NCBI GenBank assembly: GCA_014191975.1
Contig: BJHG01000002.1
Location: 1 to 64,000 of the forward strand
Origin: Methylococcaceae bacterium
GTDB lineage: Bacteria; Pseudomonadota; Gammaproteobacteria; Methylococcales; Methylomonadaceae
Direction: 5' to 3'
DNA length: 64,000 bases
Made by a program: the position numbers and the translations under genes. The notes beneath the pieces are model-generated. The model searched no databases. It saw only the letters and a program-made list of their open reading frames with translations, and was not told the origin of the DNA. Below, piece by piece: positions 18,934 through 23,114 of the stretch (position 1 is its first letter; every line of letters starts with the position of its first letter).

Positions 18934-19719
18934 ATGTATAACAAAAATAAAATTGTGTTAATTTCTGCGTTGCTATTCACGCAAAATGTTTCTGCAAATG
19001 AAATGAAGAATTTTGAAGGCATTCGGTTTATTAAAATCGATGCAGGTTGTTTTCAAATGGGACAAGATAAGCAGACCGATTTAAGCGCGAAAGACAAGCA
19101 AACGACGGCAAATGAATTACCGCAACACAAAGTATGTATTGATAAACCATTTTATATTGGTGAAACTGAAATTACCCAAAAACAATGGGAAGACGTAATG
19201 GGTCGTAATCCAAGTAAATTCAAAGGAATGTATCGACCAGTTGAAAAAGTTAGTTGGAATGACACACAAATGTTTATTGAAAAATTAAATGACCGTGCAA
19301 AAGGGGATTTTTATCGTTTACCGACTGAGGCTGAATGGGAATATGCCGCACGAGCAGGTACACAAACCGTTTGGTCATTTGGTGATGATTTAAAATCCAT
19401 TGGTGATTATGCCTGGTTTGGTAACGAAGGTTACGGTGGTGACACGCACGAAGTTGGGCAAAAAAAAGCCAATCCGTGGGGATTAGTTGATATTTACGGT
19501 AATGTTTGGGAATGGGTACAAGATTGGTATGATCCAAATGCTTATCAAAACAGTCTTGCTAATAATCCAAAAGGTTCAGAAACAGGGCAGTATAAAGTTT
19601 ATCGTGGTGGAAGTTGGGTTGCGAAACAGACACTTTTAAGGTCTGCGGTACGTTACAGTGGTCTACCAAGTACCCGTTCTGGCGACATTGGTTTTCGGTT
19701 GGTTCGAGAAATTAAATAA
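18934..19719 (+). CDS. Formylglycine-generating-enzyme (SUMF1) family secreted protein
   Basis: FYIGETEITQKQWEDVMGRNPSKF...RLPTEAEWEYAARAGT...GNVWEWVQDWYD...RGGSW. Confidence 0.9.
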   Translation: MYNKNKIVLISALLFTQNVSANEMKNFEGIRFIKIDAGCFQMGQDKQTDLSAKDKQTTANELPQHKVCIDKPFYIGETEITQKQWEDVMGRNPSKFKGMYRPVEKVSWNDTQMFIEKLNDRAKGDFYRLPTEAEWEYAARAGTQTVWSFGDDLKSIGDYAWFGNEGYGGDTHEVGQKKANPWGLVDIYGNVWEWVQDWYDPNAYQNSLANNPKGSETGQYKVYRGGSWVAKQTLLRSAVRYSGLPSTRSGDIGFRLVREIK

Positions 19720-19761: not shown

Positions 19762-19835
19762 ACAATATTTTCAAGCATTAAAATTACCAGATAGCCCGTA
19801 AAGCCCCGCCGTTTAGGGCGGGGAGTAAGGGTGCT

Positions 19836-19879
19836 TTTGATTGTGTAACGCATTAGTTGAAATCTCCAGTTTGTGAAAT
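19836..19879. repeat. 44-bp dispersed repeat, copy 1
   Basis: TTTGATTGTGTAACGCATTAGTTGAAATCTCCAGTTTGTGAAAT. Confidence 0.9.
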
Positions 19880-19901
19880 TATCGTGTGAATTCACGATTT
19901 T

Positions 19902-20228
19902 TTATTGCGTGAATTTTGCTTTTTCAAGTAATTCGAGCCCGCGTTGCGTTTTACCTGCACCATGTTGAGCGCGAATTTCAAATTGTGTTTTCAAATCAAA
20001 CTCCGCCACTTCGTCTAATAAATCATCGAGCGAAACCTTAATTGTCGGTTCGTTTTCACGCGCTTTCACAATTGCTAAAAGTTCCGCATCTTCCAATGCC
20101 TCATCAACATAATCATTCAGATATTTTGCCAAAACGTTATTCACAACTTCATCAACAGAGGCTAGCGTTTGTTGTGCAATCACGCTAATTTGCTGGTTTA
20201 AATTTTCGTTCAGTGTGATGGCTGTCAT
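19902..20228 (-). CDS. Antitoxin-like protein with no obvious toxin partner
   Basis: MTAITLNENLNQQISVIAQQTLASVDEVVNNVLAKYLNDYVDEALEDAELLAIVKARENE; helical antitoxin-like N-terminus; RBS AAAGGT. Confidence 0.5.
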   Translation of the reverse strand: MTAITLNENLNQQISVIAQQTLASVDEVVNNVLAKYLNDYVDEALEDAELLAIVKARENEPTIKVSLDDLLDEVAEFDLKTQFEIRAQHGAGKTQRGLELLEKAKFTQ

Positions 20229-20238
20229 GTTATTGACC

Positions 20239-20282
20239 TTTGATTGTGTAACACATTAGTTGAAATCTTCAGCTTGTGAAAT
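20239..20282. repeat. 44-bp dispersed repeat, copy 2 (overlaps hepT 3' end)
   Basis: TTTGATTGTGTAACACATTAGTTGAAATCTTCAGCTTGTGAAAT. Confidence 0.9.
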
Positions 20283-20690
20283 CGCCTCTTTTTTCAAAAT
20301 AGCCGATGAATAACGCAAAAATTCATCCAAATGCTGCGTAATCACATTAACCGTTATTACAAATTGCAATTTTTTGTAATCATGCACTGCAATGTTACGA
20401 AACCCCACCATCCGTTTGAGTGATTCTGCGAGTTTAGCATCTATCCAATTTGCCTTCGCTAACAGCGCAAAAACATCACGCGAACTTTGTGGCACGCCCA
20501 AATTATCACGACGAATTAAATGTTGCCCCATATCTAATGCGGCTTCACACGCTCGTTGAATGTTTAAAATGGCAGCATCTTGACGGGTGTAATTAGTTTC
20601 AAAACTATCAGGATTAAAATCGTATTCTTCTCGAACTCGTGCCACGCAACGTTCAATCGTGTCGGCTTTATTGATTAAGACATCATCCAT
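20256..20690 (-). CDS. hepT: HepT-like HEPN toxin
   Basis: RX4HXY motif RNIAVHDY; RQDAAILNIQRACEAALDMGQHLI; overlaps upstream nucleotidyltransferase by 8 bp. Confidence 0.88.
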   Translation of the reverse strand: MDDVLINKADTIERCVARVREEYDFNPDSFETNYTRQDAAILNIQRACEAALDMGQHLIRRDNLGVPQSSRDVFALLAKANWIDAKLAESLKRMVGFRNIAVHDYKKLQFVITVNVITQHLDEFLRYSSAILKKEAISQAEDFN

Positions 20691-21099
20691 AAACTGTTCC
20701 TCTCTTTTGAATATCGTCTAATAGTCCAGCGCGAGATTGGTCGAAATATAATTTTTCGCTTAAAACAAAACATTCAAATAAATCGGCTTCTAATTTGTTT
20801 GCCCATAAACAGCGACCCGTTTGCAAAATTTGATATTGCATGACCGTTGAAGCCGCTCGCATATCGAGTAAATCCACGTCACAACCTGCGATTTCAGCTA
20901 AATCATTCGATATATCCCAAAGTTGCAAAGGCTCTGCATAACCTGCAACCAATATGGCTAAATCTAAATCACTGTCTGAATTTGCTGTGCCGTTAGCACG
21001 ACTCCCGAAAAGATAAATAGCTAATGTGTTAGGAAATGCGGTGCGAATACTTGAAATCGCCGCTTGGGCTAATGGTTCTGAAATAGTGACTGAAATCAT
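20683..21099 (-). CDS. mntA: MntA-like minimal nucleotidyltransferase antitoxin
   Basis: GSX10DXD motif GSRANGTANSDSDLD; overlaps hepT. Confidence 0.88.
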   Translation of the reverse strand: MISVTISEPLAQAAISSIRTAFPNTLAIYLFGSRANGTANSDSDLDLAILVAGYAEPLQLWDISNDLAEIAGCDVDLLDMRAASTVMQYQILQTGRCLWANKLEADLFECFVLSEKLYFDQSRAGLLDDIQKRGTVYG

Positions 21100-21130
21100 G
21101 GTTAATCCTCCAAACCTACATTTGTTGTGC

Positions 21131-21168
21131 TTTGATTGTGTAACGCATTAGTTGAAATCTCCAGTTTG
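21131..21168. repeat. Dispersed repeat, copy 3 (about 38 bp conserved)
   Basis: TTTGATTGTGTAACGCATTAGTTGAAATCTCCAGTTTG, identical to copy 1 over this span. Confidence 0.9.
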
Positions 21169-21171
21169 ATG

Positions 21172-21765
21172 TTATTTTCGACGACGGGGCAAACGAAGTG
21201 GTTTTTCAACTCTCCAGCCTTTATAAGTCGGATGCTTATCAAGGTAATACTGGATAGATTGTGTGGCAAATTCTCGAAATTTTTCGTCATTCCAAAGTTT
21301 GATAATTTTGTCTCTCGACTCTTGTCGTATTTCATTTTCTTTTTGATAAACACGACCGTTGTAGCTATCTAGTTTTGGTTGTGATTTGCCCTGTAAATGT
21401 CCATGAGGAATTGAAGGGAAAAAATCATCATCACATTTGTGAAATGTCCAATGTGACATTGCTGTATGTGGCGCGGAACAAAAATATAGCAACGGCGGCT
21501 CATTATTTGATTTGAATTCCTCACTACTTTCAATAACACCAATCTTTTTTGCATCATCAAACCATACGTCATTCAATTCAATCTTTTCACGAGATAAAAC
21601 ACGCTCTGCATAAATGCCTGAAGGATTTTTAGGCGAACACATCATTCTTAACAGTGCCAAGCGTTCCATAAATTGTGAACAGCTAAGTGAACCAGTCAGA
21701 TAGCAAATTTTTGATAATTTTAAAAATAAACGAGTAGATTTATAAGTTAGATATTTCGCCATCAT
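21172..21765 (-). CDS. Uncharacterised protein with His-rich motif
   Basis: Complete ORF; HTAMSHWTFHKCDDDFFPSIPHGHLQGKSQPKLDSYNGRVY; no family recognised. Confidence 0.55.
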   Translation of the reverse strand: MMAKYLTYKSTRLFLKLSKICYLTGSLSCSQFMERLALLRMMCSPKNPSGIYAERVLSREKIELNDVWFDDAKKIGVIESSEEFKSNNEPPLLYFCSAPHTAMSHWTFHKCDDDFFPSIPHGHLQGKSQPKLDSYNGRVYQKENEIRQESRDKIIKLWNDEKFREFATQSIQYYLDKHPTYKGWRVEKPLRLPRRRK

Positions 21766-22223: not shown

Positions 22224-23114
22224 CTACTTCAACCCAGCCAAAACCTTAGCCACCGTTTCCCCCATCGCCGAAGGCGTTGGGCTAATCGTTACGCCTAAAT
22301 CGCGCAACATCGCGACTTTTTCCGCCGCACTTTCACCCGCTGACGAAATAATCGCCCCCGCGTGACCCATACGACGACCTTCTGGCGCAGTCAAACCTGC
22401 AATGTACGCAATCACAGGTTTTTTCATATTCGCTTGGGCAAAAATTCCCGCATCGACTTCTTGTGGACCACCGATTTCACCAATCATCAAAATGACTTTG
22501 GTTTCGTCGTCTTGCTCGAATTTTTCAAAAATATCGCGGTGCGAACTGCCGTTAATCGGGTCGCCACCAATACCCACAGACGTTGAAATACCAATACCTA
22601 AACGTTTCATTTGGTCAGCGGCTTCATAACCCAACGTGCCTGAACGTCCCACCACGCCCACATTGCCGCGCATATAAATGTGACCAGGCATAATCCCGAG
22701 CATCGCACGCTCTGGGCTAATCGTTCCCGCACAATTTGGACCTGTTAAAACCATCCGTTTTTCGACAGGAAAACGACGCAAATAACTTTTCACCGTCATC
22801 ATGTCTTGAGTCGGAATGCCGTCAGTAATCGCCACGCAGTATTTAATTCCCGCGTCCGCTGCTTCCATAATTGAATCTGCTGCAAAGGCTGGCGGTACAA
22901 AAATAATACTCGCTTCTGCGCCAGCTAATTCAACCGCTTCTTTAACGGTGTTAAAAACGGGACGGTCTAAATGTCGTTGTCCGCCTTTGCCTGGAGTTAC
23001 GCCGCCGACCACGTTTGAACCGTAGTTAATCATGTCTTGGGCGTGAAATGTGCCGATTTTGCCCGTGAATCCTTGAACAATAATGCGGGTGGTTTCGTTA
23101 ATAAAGATTGCCAT
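22224..23114 (-). CDS. mtkB: Malate--CoA ligase (malate thiokinase) alpha subunit / succinyl-CoA synthetase alpha-like
   Basis: SucD-like: TRIIVQGFTGKIGTFHAQDMINYGSNVVGGVTPGKGG; adjacent to mtkA and malyl-CoA lyase. Confidence 0.85.
   Translation of the reverse strand: MAIFINETTRIIVQGFTGKIGTFHAQDMINYGSNVVGGVTPGKGGQRHLDRPVFNTVKEAVELAGAEASIIFVPPAFAADSIMEAADAGIKYCVAITDGIPTQDMMTVKSYLRRFPVEKRMVLTGPNCAGTISPERAMLGIMPGHIYMRGNVGVVGRSGTLGYEAADQMKRLGIGISTSVGIGGDPINGSSHRDIFEKFEQDDETKVILMIGEIGGPQEVDAGIFAQANMKKPVIAYIAGLTAPEGRRMGHAGAIISSAGESAAEKVAMLRDLGVTISPTPSAMGETVAKVLAGLK

Follow-up and report, generated by a model that had tools for sequence, protein, structure and literature searches.

Copies of a short protein-coding repeat separate unrelated TA modules beside sucD in one genus of the Methylococcales, and comparison of their flanks supports the view that different TA pairs have replaced one another between the copies. 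The repeat, hereafter called the seam, appears to be a chimeric intercistronic sequence composed of the tail of a leader ORF and the first hicB codons. Taken together, this composition, a single origin and the exchange of cassettes by homologous or illegitimate recombination across the seam form a reading to which we assign a probability of roughly two in three. We analysed a stretch of 64 kb, referred to as the window, by scanning it at ≤3 mismatches with 100 shuffles as control. The scan recovered two full 44-bp copies (none in the 100 shuffles), and a third, shorter copy was seen in separate comparisons. All three are on the plus strand, with the array genes on the minus strand, and none would be expected by chance; the scan and the shuffles confirm the three copies in the same orientation that an earlier note on this DNA had described. 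Copy 2 is 93% identical to copy 1. The features of the locus are the following (seam copies are described as read on the gene strand):

22224-23114, minus strand: sucD, the conserved array anchor
21172-21765, minus strand: uncharacterised protein of 197 aa, encoded between sucD and the first seam; without a match in Pfam, NCBIfam or PADLOC
21131-21168, minus (gene) strand: seam copy 3, 38 bp, with the HQTGDFN-stop tail, the TAATG overlap and the hicB start codons; upstream of the chimeric MntA
21116-21148, minus strand: hicB-derived mini-ORF of copy 3, MRYTIKAQQM-stop, ending 16 nt before the MntA start
20683-21099, minus strand: type VII TA antitoxin MntA; 105.5 bits for NCBIfam MntA_antitoxin (cut-off 60), GSX10DXD present
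21052-21099, minus strand: ParD-derived N-terminal tag MISVTISEPLAQAAIS on MntA, a second shared stretch of 48 bp
20256-20690, minus strand: HepT toxin; NCBIfam HepT_toxin 159 bits (cut-off 60), RX4HXY present, last residues ISQAEDFN from the seam
20239-20282, minus (gene) strand: seam copy 2, 44 bp, with the HepT C-terminus, TAATG and the hicB start codons
20230-20256, minus strand: hicB-derived mini-ORF of copy 2, MCYTIKGQ-stop, with 1 nt between its stop and the next antitoxin's ATG
19902-20228, minus strand: lone RelB-like antitoxin, partner toxin missing; weak NCBIfam RelB_like match
19836-19879, minus (gene) strand: seam copy 1, 44 bp, the distal array end, not followed by a TA gene

The reading frames are those given in the earlier note: HepT ends in ...KEAISQAEDFN-stop within copy 2, the corresponding frames being ISQTGDFN-stop in copy 1 and HQTGDFN-stop in copy 3. 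Its description of each module as ending in a copy holds as far as the copies lie at module boundaries, but copies 2 and 3 are better called module-preceding, because the next module begins, with its RBS and start codon, within about 10-30 bp of them. The shared in-frame TAA is likewise present, but that it forms part of TAATG, the start of a hicB-derived frame, had been overlooked. A fourth copy is found at another locus of the window's own genome (G000, C19:421-464). Around the array, a 100-aa Rap1a immunity-like protein (PF18602, 21838-22140) is encoded between sucD and the array, and a FGE-sulfatase family protein (18934-19719, plus strand) faces it from the other side. Just past copy 1 lies a GC-rich hairpin, GCCCCGCC GTTTA GGGCGGGG (19803-19823), which we take to resemble IS200/IS605-type ends; a different palindrome adjoins the array end in G004.

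Read on the gene (minus) strand, the seam core is CAAACTGGAGATTTCAACTAATGCGTTACACAATCAAAGCACAA, and from the ATG onward it equals the start of hicB. Its 3' half corresponds to the first 8 hicB codons (MRYTIKAQ) and its 5' half to the tail of a 22-aa leader ORF, MISVT[I/T]SEPLAQAAISQTGDFN plus stop, the stop overlapping the hicB start as TAATG. In G011 the leader ORF is intact (MISVTTSEPLAQAAISQTGDFN plus stop), and leader residues 1-16 agree with the beginning of the ParD-like antitoxins of G002, G004 and G014, for which the PF11903 alignment starts at residue 1. The G011 seam runs on into an entire HicB of 76 aa (MRYTIKAQIYVGEESGF...), which has full-length relatives throughout the family, and HicA comes next (PF07927, 56.8 bits), i.e. 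seam DNA continues into complete HicB beside HicA, as expected of a hicB-derived sequence; truncated hicB follows the seam in G016 and G013. The N-terminus (MxYTIKAxI) is common to native hicB genes of the family, but the DNA upstream of them is different, so that the hicB half comes from hicB while the upstream half is not general to hicB. No promoter was found inside the seam on the gene strand, its folding as a hairpin RNA is unremarkable (the window seam folds no better than shuffles on either strand), and Rfam gave no credible match for it.

The MntA-HepT pair carries the adjacent signature motifs of type VII systems (GSRANGTANSDSDLD and RNIAVHDY), yet its outer ends are borrowed, since native MntA of G003 and G009 does not have the MISVTISEPLAQAAIS start and native HepT proteins elsewhere in the genus end differently (...LKKDALNFRGD-stop, ...LKKDAT-stop). 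The tag MISVTISEPLAQAAIS also occurs on an intact ParD, to residues 1-58 of which PF11903 ParD_like aligns. The earlier note had considered the copies as possible relics of other hepT 3' ends, and had named a simple old local duplication as the outcome to be expected if the repeat occurred nowhere else and gene order were fixed in all relatives. Copy 2 does encode the HepT C-terminus, but on the native C-termini the relic origin was rejected: the seam gave hepT its tail, and Xre regulators have this seam-encoded ending, ...GDFN-stop, too. Moreover, seams lie beside genes other than hepT in many genomes, and both a confined repeat and a fixed order were looked for and not found (see the flank comparison below), which leaves duplication or relics with hardly any probability. 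In G011:C7 an MntA with a decayed tag follows an aminotransferase gene, and in G013 a seam-hicB relic follows the same gene; in the other genomes where the downstream flank of this gene was readable, neither seam nor tag was present. At the start of contig G012:C115, near a proS-like gene, lies the 3' part of an array-type mntA (152 bp at 96% DNA identity), without hepT.

The repeat is genus-specific. Near-exact matches occur in 10 of the 18 genomes of the genus, all compared genomes being MAGs; the longer leader as query gives matches in 12, and 22 seam copies that include the hicB half are spread over 11, with one half-relic in a twelfth (G003). The other 219 genomes of the family yielded one weak, chance-like match with 3 mismatches (G192). 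Named matches belong to Methylococcales or 'uncultured proteobacterium' MAGs, apart from one apparent chance match in Chengkuizengella. Carriage by plasmids or phages was rejected, as no seam copy was found in PLSDB at the sensitivity used or in IMG/VR with the exact pattern.

In 8 genomes the array is situated directly downstream of sucD and on the same strand (the junction is visible in 8 relatives), and what lies between sucD and the first seam differs among relatives. The recurrence beside other TA or accessory genes for which the earlier note proposed a search is borne out by seven unrelated TA module types following seams in relatives: MntA-HepT, RelB-like with or without ParE, ParD-like/ParE-like, MNTQQ/ParE, HEPN, MASKV/GNAT and HicBA. 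Genes before seams include HepT, Xre regulators, ParE toxins, GNAT and various unknowns. For 18 of the 22 copies a TA gene or TA relic starts within about 60 bp past the seam. Copies at other loci were found in G000:C19, G004:C122, G013:C95, G015:C6 and G016:C24. The empty sites that had been asked for exist in the form of sucD loci without a seam (G006, G012), a decayed half-seam at sucD (G003) and short contig ends (G001, G005), but not as matched occupied and empty pairs of one strain. Fragments of the sucD 3' end lie in or at the ends of arrays in G004 (72 bp, 97%), G009 (34 bp) and G014 (52 bp), and would fit array concatenation; next to the G014 fragment comes a gene similar to the one that directly follows sucD in G011, as though two sucD-linked arrays had become fused. 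At about 968-1100 of G004:C122, a seam and a parD remnant precede MTPSQQ/methyltransferase/rsmI genes, at which G002 carries the distal end of its sucD-linked array. A chromosomal rearrangement through the array is a possible source of this difference.

To compare the surroundings of the copies, we aligned 250-bp flanks for all 231 copy pairs, skipping the seam itself. Ten pairs shared only the right flank, 8 only the left flank and 213 neither, and not a single pair shared both. Vertical inheritance would give pairs with both flanks shared; as 18 pairs share one flank and none of these shares the other, every comparable copy is an exchange junction. G000 and G010 have a common block of 938 bp (96% identity), both ends of which fall inside the seam. 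Within mntA-hepT these two genomes differ at 14 of 107 fourfold sites (13%) versus 47 of 144 (33%) in sucD (p = 3.3e-4), and G000 and G014 at 6 of 109 (5.5%) versus 38 of 149 (25.5%; p = 1.8e-5), a sign of transfer of mntA-hepT; lower divergence than sucD was not significant for the GNAT module (p = 0.51) or parD (p = 0.06). Thus the suggestion of the earlier note that the repeat is a recombination or cassette boundary is supported by the seven module types, the lack of any pair with both flanks in common and the sucD loci with no seam or a decayed half-seam.

Since the genomes are MAGs, misassembly at a short repeat needs to be excluded. The genus genomes with the repeat are MAGs by title, and at low coverage short repeats can misjoin metagenome contigs, which would mimic shuffling. 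However, several copies occur together in contigs of 83-204 kb, and the same in-frame fusions are seen in independent assemblies (the HepT tail in G000 and G010; the Xre tail in G007, G010, G014 and G015). An artefact would also leave the sucD fragments, the native single-copy versions and the decayed relics at other loci unexplained, and we regard it as very improbable.

Some antitoxin genes appear to be chimeric. Residues 1-70 of the lone antitoxin in the window are as in the RelB-like/ParE modules of relatives and residues ~71-108 as in the MGALSLRL antitoxin of G004, so that it appears to be a RelB-like N-terminus fused to the C-terminus of another antitoxin family. The native RelB-like module of G006 and the array version are alike only from ~18 nt before the start codon onward, which indicates that the RBS was kept and the DNA further upstream replaced. 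Elsewhere, a ParD-like gene in the G014 array (L042) combines a ParD N-terminal part with a RelB-like C-terminal part, making another chimeric antitoxin, and an xre gene before a seam in the G010 array (L040) differs from Xre of G014, G007 and G015 in its N-terminal half but is related to them in its C-terminal half.

We propose that the seam probably arose in a single event, a deletion that would have joined the 5' end of a parD-like gene to the leader-hicB junction beside sucD. Other TA modules would then have been attached behind hicB codons 5-10, each keeping its own RBS and losing its upstream sequence, as is seen for the RelB-like and HEPN modules. The near-identical seams would since have served as short homologies for gain, loss, duplication and exchange of whole TA cassettes among related strains, mainly downstream of sucD and presumably by ordinary homologous or illegitimate recombination. 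By-products of this process would be the seam-derived C-terminus of HepT and Xre and the leader-derived N-terminus of MntA, and the stop-start overlap may couple translation of successive cassettes.

A dedicated site-specific system, integron-like or Xer/dif-like, with the seam as its site and the TA modules as cassettes, would likewise leave a constant core with variable flanks, and the constant core with cassette-specific flanks, the common orientation and the module-sized units are all in keeping with it. XerC/XerD-type recombinases are encoded, and the sub-cut-off integrase-profile matches are probably these. Nevertheless, the integron integrase (TIGR02249) exceeds the cut-off in none of the 18 genomes, on which ground an integron identity was rejected, and the window seam has no attC-like fold on either strand. 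A dif site was rejected as well, the core matching the E. coli dif sequence no better than shuffles (fraction 0.32). Half of the core consists of hicB codons, there is no 11-6-11 palindrome, plasmids and viruses were without copies at the sensitivities used, and the breakpoints shift by several bases on either side of the core. A dedicated site-specific system is accordingly unlikely, though less so than an artefact. The variable breakpoints and the lack of an integron integrase, attC fold or dif similarity favour homologous recombination across the seam, which from the sequences compared would be the likeliest mechanism.

Another explanation is that the seam is retained as a translational coupler, the upstream frame terminating at TAATG and the mini-ORF being translated with reinitiation at the next TA start, and that recombination is secondary. 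Indeed, nearly all copies have retained TAATG, the stop of the mini-ORF falls between 4 nt overlapping and 2 nt before the next start in the RelB-like, ParD and GNAT-antitoxin modules, and seam divergence is 5.3% compared to 33% at sucD fourfold sites. However, recent spread also explains the low divergence, about 3 of 6 coupled module types is just modestly above chance, and the mini-ORFs of the HEPN, MNTQQ and G010 MntA copies run ~17 nt or more into the next gene. A coupling role is plausible but, given these overlaps, not established, and coupling as the main reason for the seam seems doubtful, about on a par with a site-specific system. Similarly tentative is the idea of a dedicated, integrase-free TA cassette system in which one protein-coding seam is both exchange site and translational connector; if true, promoter-poor TA pairs would plug into one chromosomal array and be swapped, or fused into chimeras, within the genus.

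Among known systems, Acinetobacter pdif modules are discrete accessory modules, TA pairs included, that have a short recurring site at their borders and undergo reshuffling (PMC6449649, PMC13141974, PMC9455709), and in this the seam arrays resemble them. The pdif sites are 28 bp long with an 11-6-11 layout and a palindromic inner part, are bound by XerC/XerD and are mostly located on plasmids (PMC6449649), whereas the seam is chromosomal, always on the same strand within an array, protein-coding, absent from PLSDB at the sensitivity used and without such a 28-bp Xer site by comparison with E. coli dif and shuffles. With integron arrays the seam arrays share a uniform orientation behind an anchor, cassettes that are poor in promoters and often are TA pairs, and one repeat per boundary, but they differ by having no integrase over cut-off, attC fold or recognised attI, and by a boundary derived from hicB and parD genes. 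TA clusters in defence islands also combine several TA loci within a few kb, e.g. eight TA loci in 7 kb, with two hicBA and solitary hicB genes in one island (PMC10865869); the passages of that report on repeats, recombination and cassettes describe no shared seam, gene-tail replacement or flank exchange. Compared to type VII MntA/HepT (PMC7641770), the window pair has both proteins and both signature motifs, but its MntA N-terminus and HepT C-terminus come from neighbouring array sequences. In the open-access literature searched, whose coverage is limited, no report of a coding seam shared between unrelated TA modules was found.

Chromosomal TA loci vary through horizontal transfer (PMC7167474), and it is a standing question how TA modules get into and out of chromosomes when no mobile element is visible. 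The locus described here suggests a concrete route, namely a short coding seam common to unrelated TA pairs beside one conserved gene, and its fusions show how TA proteins gain foreign ends and how antitoxins turn chimeric.
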